Assembly: GCA_951394405.1 (NCBI GenBank)
Contig: OX596340.1
Span: forward strand, 248,001 to 312,000
DNA length: 64,000 bases
Origin: Coprinellus micaceus
Taxonomy: Eukaryota; Basidiomycota; Agaricomycetes; Agaricales; Psathyrellaceae
Reading direction: 5' to 3'
Below are positions 41,363-49,643 of this stretch, piece after piece. The notes below the pieces were generated by a model that did not search any database, was not told where the DNA came from, and worked only from the letters and a program-made list of their open reading frames with translations. Position numbers and translations under genes: made by a program. Position 1 is the stretch's first letter. Every line of letters begins with the position of its first letter.

Positions 41363-41832
41363 ATGGATGGTACTCACGTCTTCTCCACCTCTCCGGCAGC
41401 TTGCCACCATTTACCTGGGAAGAAACGACGAGTCGGATGGATACATAAGCTCTTTCGCCATGGAGAACTGCCACAGGCTCGTCCCCACACACCTGATCAG
41501 CCGCCGGAGAAGACCCGCCGCGAACCGTCGGCGAAAGGCTCGCCCCTCGACCTCGCATGTCCTCCGGAAAATGACCAGGCATACAAGGATTTTCTCCACC
41601 AGTATCCAGGTTAGCATTATACCTTGAGGCAGTTTACCCGCACATTCCTGACCCCAAGTAGAATACCGTCTGACATACCCACTGGACGCAGTTCGAAAGT
41701 CTGACTTTTCGAGGTTAGAGAGGAGCGGAGAAACGTATGTCGACTATATGGGCGGCGCTCTCTACCCAGAGAGCCTTATCACGAAGCATGCCGATTTTCT
41801 CAAGGGTGCAGTTCTTGGTAACACACATTCCA
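41363..41832 (+). pseudogene. Class V aminotransferase / Moco-sulfurase-like gene, 5' part (split by transposon)
   Basis: Start MDGTHVFSTSPAACHHLPGK. Exon 1 (41363-41609) ends FLHQYP. Exon 2 from 41662 reads EYRLTYPLDAVRKSDFSRLE, then DYMGGALYPESLITKH and GAVLGNTHS. That is the opening of the cysteine-desulfurase-like domain of Moco sulfurases. At 41833 the transposon begins, and reading on into it gives a stop after three codons. The rest of the gene resumes at 48083. Phase across the empty site (41832 joined to 48083) is exactly conserved, so the gene was intact before insertion and is probably not functional in this allele. Confidence 0.9.
41824..41832. repeat. 9 bp target-site duplication, left copy
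   Basis: CACATTCCA, identical to 48074-48082 on the other side of the transposon. Confidence 0.95.
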
Positions 41833-42123
41833 CAGGCTCCTAAACCAGCCGCTCGTGTCGAGCTTCCCCCTTGTACCGTACCGCGCGTAATCACGATCAT
41901 GTCAATGTTTGGTTAGAACAAATAAAACATCTTGGGTTTGGAGCTCGACAGAGCGGCTGGCGAATCTTCCGGTCGGCGTCTGTAGCGCAGAGGGTGGGCT
42001 CCCTCAGGAACCAGCGAAATAAACAATTATTTATCAAATTAGAAATCCAGAATATTATGCTGACCGTTTTCTCTACTCAAGCGCTCGTCAACGTCTCCCG
42101 CCTCCCTTTCCGACGTCTGTCAG

Positions 42124-44974
42124 ATGCCTATCAACCTTTCGGACAAATTCATTCGAGACGCAGCGTACAAGTTCTTCGAAAAGAGGCCATGCTTATGGCA
42201 GCTGCAAGTTGCACAGAACCTCCTGAAGGGCACCGACGTGGTCTGTTGCATCCGCACAGGGGCTGGAAAGACATTATCTTTCTGGCTGCCACTGGTTGCT
42301 GCTTTGGAGAGCGGCCTAATGAAAATCTCGATCATAGTCACGCCGCTGAACCTGTTGGGGAAGCAGAACCAAGAAGAGTTGGAGAAGCGCGGCATAGCCG
42401 CCATCGCCATCAATAGTGAGACAGCGACGAAGGAGAACTTTGAGGTGAGTAACGGCATTCTGTGTGCTCGCCACTGAAGCCTCACCCCATGTAGGCCATC
42501 GCGAAAGGGCAGTACCGTGCCGTCATCATAAATCCCGAGCTCCTCACACAAGGCGAGATGTACAAGCTTCTGCAGACCCCGGCATTTGCCTCAAAGCTCC
42601 TAAACATTGTGTTTGACGAGGGCCACTGTATCAGCACCTGGAAGAAATTTCGGGCTGCCTATGAGAGGGTTGGCATGCTCCGATACCTGCTCCCTGGAGT
42701 GCCATTCTATGTGGCATCAGCAACACTCCCACCCGAGGTCCTTTCCGACGTTCTCGACACCCTCAACCTCAAGCGTCACCAAACAAAGTTTATCATGCAT
42801 TCGAACGACCGTCCCGACGTGTATCTAACAGTGCGGGAAATGAAACATGCTGTCAGCCATTTTGAAGACCTTGCATTCCTCATACCGGATGGGTGGAAGG
42901 AGTCTGACGGCCCACCTCCCAAGTTCCTGGTGTTCTTCGACAACATCCGGGACACTGAGGCTGCCGTGAGGTACCTGCGGAGACGCCTGCCCGAGAAGTA
43001 CGCAAATAAAATTCGGTACTTCCATGCCACAATGACAGGGGAGTACCGCGACGAGGAACTCGAGGCTTACCGAGACGACGATGGTACCTGGGGGATGGCC
43101 GTCACTGACGCATTTGGTATGGTGAGTGTGGCACATTTTGCTTTGTTGCATGGACGTGCGCTGACTAGGGTGCCGTAGGGAATGGATCTTCGAGACATCC
43201 GGATTGTTGTTCAGTACACCCCCAGCTGCGATCTCTGCACGCTAATGCAGCGATTCGGCCGTGCTGCACGGGGGGACGGTATTGACGCAATCGCCGTGTT
43301 ACTAGTCGAAAGGAAACACACAACAGCAGGGAGAGAAGAGGCAGTAGGGAGGGCAGTGGAAAGGGCTTGAAAGAAGATGAAGAAGCCAAAGGCTGTTGAA
43401 CCGAAGGGAAAAGGGACGAAGCGAAAGCAAAAAGGAACCGCACCTAGCACCCCCACCCCCAAACGAACAGCACTCGCCACGATTGACATGCCCAACACTC
43501 CCGCCGTACCAACCGCAGGGCCTAGCCGTTTAAGGCAGGAGTGCAGTAGCCCAACGCCCCTTGTTTCGATTACGGATACCGAAGACGAATCCAGTTGGAG
43601 TGAGGATGTGAGGGAAGCGGCCAGCGACGCAAGTGAGGTGGAGAGCGAGGTAGAGAGTCAATTGGTGGGTGAAATGGGGGTCGATGAGCCGATTGCAGTG
43701 GCGGCGGGACCGACAACTGGTACCAGAAGGCCAAAGAAGCGGAGGAAAGGGGATGTGGAGGTGGGAAGTCCGATGGACCTCTTCATTAACCCTCCACCAC
43801 AATGTAGATGTCGAAGGGAGCCAGCAAACACCTATTTCAAGAACCGTAGTGGTGGTGGTGAGTGAACACGATTGGATTGTGTATCGATCGAGCTATTGAC
43901 ACACCGTTCTCACGGCTAGTCAACGACTACAAACAGTGCAACCCAGACGCCCCAGACGGTTGTCCTCGCTGCAAGCCCACCGAGTCCACCATCTGCTGTG
44001 ACATGCACTCCCCTGAATATTTCGAGGTCAAACTTGGGCCCTACGACACCAAGGTAGGCCCGGCCAAACGCGCACCATACAAGTCGAGCTTGAAGGTCGA
44101 GCGCAAGGATTGGGTTGAGCTCGATCACCAATTCCTGGCGAAGCTCTTGGATTGGCGGGTAGAAAATGGTGTCGAGTGCTTCGGTATGAACCCCCTGCAT
44201 ACCTTTGGCCCCCAGTTGTTCCTATCCGATGATATTGTTGAGAGATTGGTCAAGTGCTACCACTGCAACAAGATCTCAACTATTGAGGATCTGAAACGGG
44301 AGATTGACTGGAACACTGACTACATCGAGACCTACGGTGCATCATTGGTCTCGTTGATAGTGCAGCTTACCCCTGCTCCAACTCCAGCACCTCCCAAACA
44401 GCCAAAACCTCGGGGCTGTTCTGTGTGCAAGGGGTTGAACCTGCCATATGAGGGACACATCAGTACGTCTTCAACACTTCTTTAATCAGTTGTATTCTCA
44501 TTTGAGCATTCAGAGTCGTCACCAATATGCCCCATGAAGCCAAAGCGGGCATACCCTGGCAGGGTGGTGAGGGCAACGCACCCACGCTCTGACGAGAATG
44601 TCTACCCGAGTCCCCACTCGATGCCTTCTCCTACACCTCCACGCCCCACACCATCAACGCCAAACTCAACGCCAAATGCAACACCAAACACTCAAACGCT
44701 CCAGCCTGCTCGACCTCCTCAACCCGTTTCAAACTCCTCCCCATTTATTTCCTCAGCTCCATCACCATTTTGCTCATCGGACCCATCTCCGTTTTATTCA
44801 TCTGGGCAGTCACCATTTTACAATCCGCCTGGTCCGCCACTCAACGCAGATTTGAGACGACTACCTTTCCTCACTAACCCTCCCTCTACACCTCCAAATC
44901 CCCGCCGTCTTCCCCAACCTCCATATCATCCCCCAACCCAGCCCACTCTGAGTCCACGTCCATCGCATCGCTGA
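42124..44974 (+). CDS. RecQ-like SF2 DNA helicase of the transposon, with an in-frame TGA
   Basis: Exons 42124-42444, 42495-43121, 43179-43857, 43920-44462 and 44514-44974. Together they span 877 codons, but TGA at 43368-43370 would stop after 379 residues. Helicase motifs: Walker A CIRTGAGKTLSFWLP, motif Ia IIVTPLNLLGKQ, DEGH box (FDEGHCIS), motif III ASATLP, and motif VI MQRFGRAARGDG. Past the TGA the frame stays open and properly spliced for almost 500 codons. These hold a basic linker, Cys pairs (CPRC, CCDMHSP, CYHC, CSVC) and a Pro-rich end. Such RecQ-like proteins are numerous in Agaricomycetes. The helicase may unwind DNA during transposition; this is inferred from co-location. The last 89 bases overlap the DUF6589 gene on the other strand. 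Confidence 0.88.
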
Positions 44975-47823
44975 ATACCGCCTCCAACCGCTTCGACATG
45001 GCGATGGCCATCCCCTTGCTCATCATATCTTGTGCGTGATAGCTAGACTTACGACCACGAATAAATACATGGTATCGGTTCTCTTGCATGTGGGCTCGGA
45101 GTCTGCGAAAAGTGTTCTTCATCGATGGCGGAGTATGGCTGGTGGTTCTCTGGTTCAGGCAGTACATGTCTTCAAACTGAGCTCGAACCGTCTTGTAGAC
45201 CTCGATAAGCGCCGATTCCTTGATCATTTTGGCCTTCGAACGGTTAGAAGACTTTCCGCCGAAGATCCTCTGTGCCACTCAAGTGAGTGTATGCTTGTGA
45301 TATGGTTCAACAAAGACATACCTTGATATACAAATTGTTGTGCTCGACGAGCCAATCTATCCCCCTCCATTTCCCCCGCTTGCCAGTGGGGTTGATGAGG
45401 ATCGAGTAGCGTACTGCCTTTCTAGGAAGGTGGATCAGCTATTTGAGGTGGTAGGAGCAAACACGCACTCACCTCAGTCCCGGCGGGTAGATGAACAAGA
45501 CATTCTTGAGATACAAGTAGAGCTCATTTGCGTACTTATGCTTCCCGCAGCCTTGGAAGATAAATGCCCATGGAAGGAAGCAAGTTTCGAGGCGCCCAAT
45601 ATCACCCATGTTCATCGCGTAAACTGTTTCCTCGTATAACAGGAAGAGCTCCTGCTGCAAGAGCATGTTTTCATACTGAAGGTCTCGTTCTTCGGCCCTA
45701 GTGAATCTCAGCTTCGATAACTCGGAGGGTGAACTCACAAAGTCTCGAGCAAGCTCTTGGGAGAGCTTCATAATCTCCTCAAAGGTAGGGTTGAATTTCT
45801 CCACCCAGTCCTCCAGTGACAACACACCTGGGTGCTTCGCCTTCACCTTTGCCAACCACGCCTCTAATCGAAGACAAATCCCAACATGCTGGATGACCTC
45901 GTGTAGCTGTCGGAATGTGGGCGACGAGTGTATCTTCCCTGTCTCCTTTGGTCGAATCTGTCCAACCTGCTCGAGAACACAATTTGGGTCGTCCTTGGCC
46001 GCCTTGGGGAGAATAAAGGTACGCCATATCGCATCAGCGCATGCCATCTTGAAATGAAAAAGACCCATAACGGGGACGGTGTTCTGGAGTCGCCTCCAGG
46101 GTGTTTTTTCCTCAGAGCGAGACTGCTTGAGGGCTCGAAGCCTCTCCAAGGTCAATAGATCTCCAGAGAGTAAACTGGCGATGTTTCCGAGGTCTTTCAA
46201 TCCATCCCCTTCCCCAACCCCAGTTTGTGCGCATGCATCCTTAATTACCTCACCATTCGTGGCTGCAGTGTTCGGGTTTTTGTCGATTGCGTGCAGCGGG
46301 ACTTGCTTGGTTGCCGTGAGGGGAATTTCTTCGACAACCTCGGGCACTTCGAGTTTCCTCTTCAATGCCCTAAGAGGCTCGGGTCCAAAATCAAAGAGAT
46401 CGGACATGAGCTTGTTGGTATTGTAGCGGCCCCGTCGAAGTAGCCCGTGAGGCGGGACTGGTCCAGTTTCTTCGTGAATTTTAGTGAGGTCAGCGAGTGT
46501 GATTTTACGTGGGGCAGGCGTTGAGGGAGAGCTATCGGCAGGCAAAGATGGGGTACCAGACTCGATTACCGTTGGGGCGGTTGGCATAGAGGTGACTGGT
46601 GTCGCACTAGGAGCTAAAGTCGAGCCCAATACTGAGATATGGTGTAGAGCGGGATGGTAGTAGGGAGAACGCTCCCAAACCTCCCTACCACAGTCAAGGT
46701 CTTCTAGTTTTATGTCGGGGTGAAGGGGAATTGCGGTGGCGGTGGTAATATGCGCCAGGGTATCCCCGTTGCGCTCAGCCGTTGGATGGGCGGGCTTGAA
46801 GTCGATATCGAGGTTATCCCATGCATACAAACACAGGCCGCTTTGACCTAGAGTGCGCGCCGCGCGATCTCGCTTTTTGGAGATGCTGGTGATGCCATTT
46901 TGAATTGCCTTTGGCGATATTGTAACCCCCACCCTCGAAAGAAATTCGAGTGGGATATCGGCGACTCCTGCTGAGTGCATAAACATCCCTGTCGAGCTCT
47001 GGAATGCGTTGCACTGGCTGTTAGTACTCTGCAGTGCAATGCTCATGCAGACAATCGATTTCTATTTACAAAGGGTTAGTGCTTCGTACTACCGTTTTCC
47101 AAACGGCATCGCACTCACAATTTCGATGATTTTGCGGTCACGCTCCTCTAACTGTTCCGGGTGGTTCTCCGGAAGATCCGCAGAGTCTTGACCACCTCCA
47201 GCCTCATCCTCAACGTCCTCCCATTCCCTGTCACCGTCATCTGGCCGGACATCGCCCATCTCAACATCTTCAATCTCCACCTCCACCCCACGCCGTCGAA
47301 TAGGGCCCCTTGGCTCCTTTTCCTTCTCTCTCTCCGCTTGCTTTGTTCGCTTTCGCAGCCTTTCCCGGACCAAAGCCTCGTCTGCAGCCAACAGCCGTCC
47401 GAGCAAGCTCCAAAGGTGGGGCGCTAGAGTCTTCATTGTGCCTCCGATGCGTTCGACAGTTGCGTCCTTCAACGCCTCTTCTGTGGCATTCGCCGCATTG
47501 AAGCGCAGGTAGGCCTCGGGTTGGGTCAAGATCACGACCTCATTGGCATACATGGCTTCTGCCAGCGAGAAAACACAGGCCGTCGTGTATTCCTCAGTAG
47601 CCTCAGCAGCCCTCAACCCTTCGATAACTCGTGGCGTATGGCTCACGAGTGCAGCGATCTCGTCGGGGTGAGTGGCGGCAAGAGAAGCAGAGTGGTGGAT
47701 CACAGAGGTCATTAAGATTGGGAGCGAGATCCCTTCAGACTCCAGCATGTCGAGTGCCGAAATGCACGTTTCAAGATCCATGACCACAGTAGACGCCGTA
47801 CTCTCCGTAGACGAGGACGACAT
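44886..47823 (-). CDS. DUF6589 protein, probable transposase of the element
   Basis: Four exons: 47823-47119, 47061-45473, 45421-45322 and 45269-44886. They give 2,778 bases and 925 residues. The N-terminus is helical and acidic (SALDMLESEGISLP to EERDRKIIEI). The second exon opens KSIVCMSIALQSTNSQCNAF. Candidate metal-binding acidic residues of a DDE-like fold are AWDNLDIDFKP, GLFHFKMACAD and KYANELYLYLK. The C-terminus has VRYSILINPTGKRGKWRGID, RIFGGKSSNRSKAK and CLNQRT, typical of DUF6589. The domain is known from Agaricomycete proteins without assigned chemistry. Its place opposite a helicase, within TIRs and TSDs, makes transposase the best inference. It has no lesion. Confidence 0.88.
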
Positions 47824-48073
47824 GGTCGAGGATAAGGAAAGATAGACAGGGCACTTAGCAGGTGACTGGCATAGACGCCGACACGATATCGATGGGTTAT
47901 CTTACGTCGGTGATCTCGCTCGGGCAGCTCGGACAGGAAGATTCGCCAGCCGCTCTATCGAGCGTCGAGCCCCACATGTTTTATTTGTCCCGCACAAACA
48001 ATTACATCAAAGTGATTACGCAGGTACAAGGAGGAGACAACAGCGAGATACGAGCGGCTGGTTTAGGAGCCTG

Positions 48074-48082
48074 CACATTCCA
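48074..48082. repeat. 9 bp target-site duplication, right copy
   Basis: CACATTCCA, same as 41824-41832. Confidence 0.95.
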
Positions 48083-49643
48083 TTAACAACAGGTAAGCAA
48101 TCATGGATCCATGCATCAGGGTTTCATGGAATAACTTTGCTATCACAGCTCCCAGGCTTCTTCCAAGCATGCAAACGACGCTCGATCAGCCGTCCTGGCG
48201 TTCTTTCAAGCTTCATCAGAATATACTGTCATTTTCACGGGGAACGCTTCCGGGGCTTTGAAGCTGGTTGGGGAGTCATATCCCTTTAGCGGTGGAAATG
48301 CTTTCGTCCTCGCCGTAGACTCGCACAATAGCGTGGGTGATCCTCAGCCGCTTCAGTAGGCCTCATCCGATGTTAATTTGCTTTCAGGTTAATGGGATAC
48401 GGGAATTCGCATCTGCCAAAGGATCACACTGCGCCTATATCCCCTCAACGTCCACCGGAGGCTTTGTTCCATCAACTGCTGAGGTGAGTTAACCATGAAG
48501 CTCGACTTTTTGGCGACGAGGCTCAGGAGATCTCGCATAGGCCGTCTTGCAGGAGAATAAACCTAAAGATCTCCATTCAGCTCCGAGTCTCTTCGTATTA
48601 ACTGGCCAGTCGAATATATCGAACTGGAAGGTGCCTCTGGACGTGGTGGCCTTTGCGTCATCGCTCGGGTATCACGTACTCCTCGACGGAGCCGCACTCG
48701 CGCCCAGCACTCCCATTTCGCTATCAGATTACCCGGGGATTGACGCAATAGCGGTCTCATTTTACAAAATGTTTGGGTTTCCAACCGGCATTGGAGCTCT
48801 GGTGGTGAAGAAGTCGTTTCTCGCCCGCCTGGATCGGCCATGGTTTGCTGGAGGAACCGTGGACGTTGTCCAGGTACCTGGGAAGGGATTTACGCGCGCC
48901 GAACACCTTCATGAACAGTTTGAGGTACGCATCATTGCGTTTGTAGTCCTCCCATGCTTGATTGATGGAACTATGCCATTTACCACTTGTGCAGGATGGG
49001 ACGATCAACTACACGATGCTTCCCTCGATAGCCGAGGGACTGAGATTTTTATCAACGTACCTTCCATACCTCCCATTACGACTGTCATGCCTCCTCAACT
49101 ACCTCATATCATCCCTCTCACAACTTCAGCATGACGTCAGCGGCAAGCCCGTTGTTCAAATCCTCTCCAAGCGGCCCAATCCAACGGAGCGAGTTCGATC
49201 AGTGGGGGGGCAATCGGAGGTCGGATCACTAATCTCGCTCGTATTCCTGGATGTAAGTTGCAAGTCCTTCTTCGGGGTAGCATGTGCAGCTGATTGACTG
49301 CCGGCCCTAACAGCCTTCAGGTAATCTCTTACCGAACGCCTTCATCGAATATGCTGCCTCGGTGAACTGCATATCCCTTCGCACTGGATGCGTATGCAAC
49401 CCAGGTGCAGCCATGGCAATGCTCGGCATCCCAAGTGTTATGAGCCATTTTCGACCTGGCCAAACTCAACGTGAGGTGGAGCAAAGGTTGGGCCGGGACA
49501 CTGGCGTTGTCAGAATTAGCCTCGGACTGGCGAGTAACTTCGAGGACGTGCGGCGGGTGCTTCAGTTCGCTTCATTGATCGCACTATCAACAGCCAGGGA
49601 ACACATATTTGCGGAATGGACACATATTTCTAGACAGCAATAG
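48083..49643 (+). pseudogene. Class V aminotransferase / Moco-sulfurase-like gene, 3' part
   Basis: Resumes with INN then a GTAAGC intron (48093 on), and SSQASSKHANDARSAVLAFF. It continues TVIFTGNASGALKLVGESYP, DSHNSVNGIREFA, LLDGAALAPSTP and the PLP lysine in SFYKMFGFPTGIGALVVKK. Near the end is RTGCVCNPGA, with the cysteine that takes sulphur in Moco sulfurases and desulfurases. End ISRQQ at 49641-49643. The protein would be a PLP-dependent desulfurase-like enzyme without a MOSC domain. Its own start lies 6.2 kb upstream beyond the transposon. Transcription from the element's right TIR could still give a truncated product. Confidence 0.88.

Follow-up and report, generated by a model that had tools for sequence, protein, structure and literature searches.

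What is the sharply bounded stretch of 6,241 bp that splits a host gene in the basidiomycete Coprinellus micaceus, and how might it have moved there? The window analyzed here is the whole stretch of 64,000 nucleotides read from assembly GCA_951394405.1 (contig OX596340.1, positions 248,001 to 312,000 of the forward strand), and all coordinates of the element are window positions. The element carries a gene for a protein of the DUF6589 family and a gene for a RecQ-like helicase. We propose, with a probability of about 0.84, that it is a cut-and-paste transposon of the AcademH kind, in which the DUF6589 protein would act as the DDE transposase and the RecQ-like helicase as an accessory.

The element is real, and its computed boundaries, target site duplication (TSD) and gene pair are confirmed. 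The two inverted tips share the sequence CAGGCTCCTAAACCAGCCGCTCGT at 24 of 24 bases, beyond which a gapped likeness extends for about 150 bp, and both tips are abutted by CACATTCCA, whose 9 bp form the longest exact direct repeat at these positions. These tips, coordinates and TSD agree with a first-pass annotation made from the letters alone, as does the extent of partial likeness, which it had put at about 145 bp. In a chance control with the same sequences, an 8-base match appeared in 3 of 200,000 random position pairs; given this rarity, and because tips with an exact TSD of 8 to 10 bp were found at seven further DUF6589 loci, the TSDs exceed what chance would provide. When the flanks were rejoined with one TSD copy, the resulting sequence matched the class V aminotransferase profile PF00266 (E = 1e-8, residues 21 to 117) across a junction near residue 52. 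A paralog in the same genome matches residues 3 to 61 at C3:2488767-2488943 (63% identity) and residues 56 to 118 at C3:2488535-2488723 (67%), with a gap of 43 bases between the two stretches. Since the paralog's exon spans the insertion point uninterrupted, the element broke a host gene. The concern that the 9-bp repeats might also occur in uninterrupted homologous genes was thereby settled in the element's favor.

Two convergent genes were recognized within the element, based on a list of open reading frames (ORFs) of which a part was scanned. The helicase is encoded separately, on the strand opposite to DUF6589, and matches PF00270 (DEAD, E = 1.1e-22) and PF00271 (Helicase_C, E = 1.7e-13). 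It carries the RecQ helicase core: among the best 60 of 109 matches to PDB sequences, the first 37 are RecQ-type, 34 of them named so (WRN, BLM, RecQ, RECQ1, 4 and 5) and three named just ATP-dependent DNA helicase. The helicase frame runs into a TGA after 379 codons, and likeness to a relative persists to about position 44356; the gene in this copy therefore looks broken. The element had been described as a complete two-gene transposon, which holds for its tips, TSD and gene pair but not for its completeness, given the premature TGA. It is structurally complete with a probably broken helicase gene and, because the helicase frame is interrupted, probably not self-sufficient now.

The DUF6589 gene comprises four exons and reads through 925 residues without a stop. 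Exon 2 matches Pfam PF20231 (E = 4.2e-62), and the last exon matches it weakly (E = 0.0022, below the cut-off). DUF6589 was the sole match of the transposase exons and of five scanned relatives, none of which matched a Pfam transposase family; hAT and MULE profiles were absent from the exon scans, in which PF20231 alone rose above the cut-off. Exons 1, 2 and 4 and the helicase gave no Pfam match to XPG, the nuclease of AcademX. A profile search against PDB sequences returned two chance matches. The structure models predict an RNase H-type core with a helical insertion, and their best structural matches are Hermes, the P element, ISCth4 and RAG1, suggesting a DDE-recombinase fold. With the conserved acids described below, the models would place DUF6589 among the DDD/E transposases. 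The first-pass annotation had read DUF6589 as a DDE-type transposase and named structure prediction of an RNase H fold as the check, and the predicted fold supports that reading.

The same models raise the possibility that the element belongs, in disguise, to hAT or to some other family with 8- to 10-bp TSDs. Hermes (a hAT element) and the P element are the best predicted structural matches, and the 8-bp TSD of hAT recurs in two relatives of the window element. We consider this very improbable, as no hAT or MULE profile matched, most TSDs here measure 9 to 10 bp, and a helicase gene is not known as a feature of hAT.

Within the predicted fold, D317, D536 and E791 are the best candidates for the catalytic triad, as judged from residue conservation in three alignments (A1, A2 and A3). 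In A3, A2 and A1, Asp fills the D317 column in 44 of 46, 63 of 65 and 10 of 12 rows, and the D536 column in 45 of 46, 60 of 65 (4 gaps) and 12 of 12, respectively. At the E791 column, A3 has Glu in 41 of 46 rows (2 gaps), A2 in 35 of 65 (27 gaps) and A1 in 4 of 12 (8 gaps). E748, the Glu of KYANEL, recurs in 64 of 65 A2 rows and in 9 of 12 A1 rows, an argument for it as a putative third acid within the A2 clade. It is less likely to be the third acid here, being kept in just 14 of 41 rows of the window protein's own clade, and E791 is preferred because it is kept in both clades. The motif GLFHFKMACAD, considered for the second acid, has no conserved Asp and yields an invariant His; the conserved Asp sits in GDLLT. 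Thus, among the acidic motifs first put forward, the Asp of WDN was retained and the other two were not.

A scan of the genome with PF20231 gave 25 matches, grouped into 15 DUF6589 loci (a lower bound), and the 14 loci other than the window element were examined with about 4.3 kb on each side. A RecQ-like helicase adjoins DUF6589 at all 15 (tblastn with the helicase frames of the window and of locus L040, so that these two query loci are trivial), and the gene pair is convergent at 14. The window helicase exon has 14 matches in the genome, 12 of them at DUF6589 loci. At 8 of the 15 loci, both tips could be paired with an exact TSD, in elements of 5,806 to 6,287 bp, the TSD measuring 9 bp in five, 10 bp in one and 8 bp in two. 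Two of these elements, L040 and L041, are 99.86% identical over 5,885 bp in different flanks, and this near-identity reveals recent movement or copying. Moreover, when the flanks of L043 were rejoined with one TSD, 172 of 188 bases aligned to a repeat copy in L045 that has no insertion, a paralogous empty site. The two genes are 69.7% and 67.1% identical between L039 and L048, and 68.6% and 66.2% between L040 and L043.

These results bear on the idea that DUF6589 and the helicase are passengers, two captured host genes within a non-autonomous element that is mobilized by an enzyme from elsewhere. Such an origin would agree with the broken helicase frame of the window copy, and the case for a self-mobilizing element is computational throughout. 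Nevertheless, we give it very little credence: the pair occurs at 15 of 15 loci and within elements of three tip kinds, between elements the two genes have diverged about equally, and DUF6589 models as a DDE transposase.

Copies closer to the window element were sought through its first 20 tip bases. With up to 2 mismatches, these occur at six places in the genome, two being the element's own tips; a tip copy on C1 matches at 88% over 94 bp, and tip fragments on C11 at 93 to 95%. The genome search, which scored the best candidates, yielded tips and fragments but no further copy at full length. The expectation of further copies was therefore borne out for related tips and TSD-flanked DUF6589 elements and not for the window element at full length. 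On C4, a candidate mini-element of 74 bp (L006 1501-1574; G000:C4:570763) has both CAGG-type tips with almost nothing between them; its second tip has 5 mismatches in 20, and by inspection the 9-mers on its two sides share 7 of 9 bases.

The remaining loci are less clearly bounded. L045 and L047 have one tip each, the other side of L047 being masked, and in flanks of about 4.3 kb no acceptable tips or TSD were found for L042, L046, L050 and L051. L052 is doubtful, with tips AAGGGGCTTG that do not have the CTCSTA motif described below, TSD CTTCGAAG and a control of 0.33. Two pairs from a first scan for terminal inverted repeats (TIRs) and TSDs each had one TSD mismatch; the pair at L041 (1559-8494) was superseded by blastn boundaries, and that at L051 (1716-7661) was dropped. 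L042 (G000:C11:413400-423300) is the sole locus with the helicase back to back with DUF6589. Two helicase matches, G000:C12:59036-59398 and G000:C10:367449-367691, have no DUF6589 match nearby and are possibly host RecQ genes or orphaned helicases. In an alignment of L043 (1651-7456) with L040 (1681-7561), the coding interiors run in the same direction and the tips match crosswise, indicating that in one of them the interior is inverted relative to the ends. L043 and L045 lie in copies of one repeat whose pieces are ordered differently, L045 having seemingly lost its right tip. L039 and L048, the two TTGT-tip elements bounded at both ends, have a TSD of 8 bp instead of 9 to 10 bp, which may reflect a change of target stagger particular to this group.

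By their first four bases, the tips sort into three groups, CAGG, TAGA and TTGT. The motif CTCSTA follows, exact in 9 of 16 ends and with 1 to 3 mismatches in the other seven, five of which are TAGA ends of a second kind (with CCTGTG in most cases). Ends of the CAGG and TAGA groups have a palindromic stem that begins about 12 bases inside the tip. Upon DNA folding, the left palindrome of the window element gave z = -3.61 (0 of 200 shuffles equally stable) and the right one z = -2.62 (2 of 200). Five of eight folded ends were more stable than most shuffles (z from -2.3 to -3.8), and three, the left end of L040 and both ends of L039, were not notable (z about -1.1). Covariation was counted over 12 pairs in nine ends of the TAGA group, omitting L041 (near-identical to L040) and the CAGG and TTGT groups. 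Pairing was found in 94.3% of 106 cells, the 6 unpaired cells all lying in two outer pairs; 8 of the 12 pairs changed on both sides, none varied on one side only, and two departed solely by unpaired cells. The score was reached by none of 500 shuffles, and sliding the partner lowered every measure, a comparison in which the structure is favored over its slid versions, having been drawn from folds of the counted sequences. Compensatory changes arose in at least four places (between the two kinds of end, L049 left, L049 right and L044 left), with L049 right alone supplying five of twelve double changes. These patterns support the view that pairing is kept while the sequence changes; the paired form may be a hairpin, a cruciform or a palindromic binding site. 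That the ends act as folded single-strand hairpins, in a pathway with a helicase-driven single-strand step, is a reading that draws on the retained stem and the ever-present RecQ-like helicase, and it seems unlikely; if true, such a step would be unusual for a eukaryotic DDE transposon.

Table. Features of the window element and its insertion site, with the TSDs of related elements elsewhere in the genome.
Feature	Position	Strand	Basis or detail
Whole transposon, 6,241 bp	41833..48073	.	inverted tips and TSD
Left TIR	41833..41856	+	24 bp identical; weaker likeness to about 41982
Right TIR	48050..48073	-	24 bp identical; weaker likeness from about 47925
Left TSD	41824..41832	+	CACATTCCA, 9 bp
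Right TSD	48074..48082	+	CACATTCCA, 9 bp
Left subterminal palindrome (hairpin)	41845..41960	+	arms 41845-41854 CCAGCCGCTC and 41951-41960 GAGCGGCTGG
Right subterminal palindrome (hairpin)	47946..48061	-	arms 48052-48061 and 47946-47955
RecQ-like helicase gene to premature stop	42124..43370	+	exons 42124-42444, 42495-43121, 43179-43370; TGA 43368-43370
Helicase C-terminal region past premature stop	43371..44356	+	tblastn with P0227
DUF6589 putative transposase gene, 925 residues	44886..47823	-	PF20231, gene model, predicted exon 2 fold
DUF6589 exons	47823-47119, 47061-45473, 45421-45322, 45269-44886	-	splice sites by inspection
Asp317 codon, proposed first catalytic acid	46816..46818	-	WDN
Asp536 codon, proposed second catalytic acid	46159..46161	-	GDLLT
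Glu791 codon, proposed third catalytic acid	45343..45345	-	DWLVEH, exon 3
Interrupted class V aminotransferase gene, left part	41676..41832	+	start approximate; joined flanks match PF00266 across junction
Interrupted class V aminotransferase gene, right part	48083..49134	+	introns; end approximate
TSD of L039			GCTCACAC, 8 bp
TSD of L048			AGTCCAAT, 8 bp
TSD of L040			TGTGACACG, 9 bp
TSD of L041			CCCAGTCACC, 10 bp
TSD of L043			GACGTGTCC, 9 bp
TSD of L044			GGAAGGAGG, 9 bp
TSD of L049			AGAAAGCCC, 9 bp

Beyond this genome, a region search with the DUF6589 protein recovered DUF6589 in every one of the best 120 of 123 proteins. As far as names were recognized, the species-named relatives (best 120 of 421 and 120 of 123) belong to Agaricomycetes, and the closest relative of the window protein among the matches listed has 72% identity over 80% of the searched region. 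No relatives were found among viral contigs, and no fusion of DUF6589 with an XPG nuclease among the best 240 of 544 proteins, which are fungal by name or unnamed and do not cover animals. DUF6589 went unmentioned in the literature searched. One protein of 1,568 residues from Paramarasmius palmivorus (P0227) joins DUF6589 and then a RecQ-like helicase in a single gene model, which may be a further link between the two, unless the fusion is an artefact of gene prediction.

If the element is indeed a transposon of the AcademH kind, the DUF6589 protein would bind the inverted ends and then cut them, before joining them to the target through a cut staggered by about 9 bp (8 to 10 bp across elements) that host repair would convert into the TSD. 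The helicase would be an accessory, most likely opening the palindromic ends or serving repair after strand transfer. This would provide DUF6589, a functionally uncharacterized Pfam family common in mushrooms, with a likely function, and suggests that this widespread fungal family belongs to mobile DNA. Catalogues that list DUF6589 proteins and the adjoining RecQ-like helicases as host genes may therefore be counting transposons. Two questions also become testable, namely, for what reason certain DDE transposons bring a helicase along and whether its substrate is the conserved palindromes at their ends.

Published accounts, taken here in part, provide the frame for classification. Those of AcademH and AcademX give TSDs of 9 or 10 bp and of 3 or 4 bp, respectively, lengths that Kojima ties to their helicase and nuclease (Kojima 2023, PMC10045372). 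Kojima places AcademX in the same superfamily as AcademH. DEAD and Helicase_C domains are attributed together to AcademH, KolobokH or Helitron, and AcademH is reported at low copy in Basidiomycota, Ascomycota and Mucoromycota (PMC10799480); a putative non-autonomous Academ is described in a mushroom (PMC8290104). Academ is ranked among the DDD/E superfamilies, and KolobokH, from fungi only, combines a DDE transposase with a RecQ helicase (PMC9587614). This last case lends weight to a helicase-bearing lineage outside Academ, in which DUF6589 would found its own superfamily and would have gained its helicase independently, as in KolobokH, where the RecQ helicase joined another superfamily (PMC9587614). 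Several points favor it and count against the AcademH assignment: Academ is known here by description; the transposase exons and five relatives scanned match no Pfam transposase family; and the TSD is 8 bp, not 9 to 10 bp, in 2 of 8 elements. We regard this separate lineage as improbable, since the 9- to 10-bp TSD in 6 of 8 elements, the helicase domains and the occurrence in Basidiomycota match AcademH as described in those accounts.

Set against the individual systems, the window element departs from KolobokH, with which it shares the putative DDE transposase and the RecQ helicase, by its TSD, CACATTCCA instead of the TTAA of Kolobok. From AcademX, as partly described, it differs by a 9-bp TSD instead of 3 to 4 bp and by having no XPG match in exons 1, 2 and 4 or the helicase, XPG being the nuclease of AcademX. 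Likeness to hAT (Hermes) and the P element lies in the predicted transposase fold; hAT is defined by an 8-bp TSD and a hAT-type transposase profile, neither of which the window element has, and a helicase gene is not known as part of hAT or the P element. The covarying subterminal palindrome is unmentioned in the AcademH descriptions compared, which are partial. With AcademH, again by description rather than by transposase sequence, the window element shares a superfamily 2 (SF2) helicase of the DEAD/Helicase_C type beside the transposase and a 9-bp TSD. Overall, gene content, TSD and host make the element a probable new member of AcademH, and we infer from description rather than from sequence comparison that DUF6589 is probably the Academ transposase.
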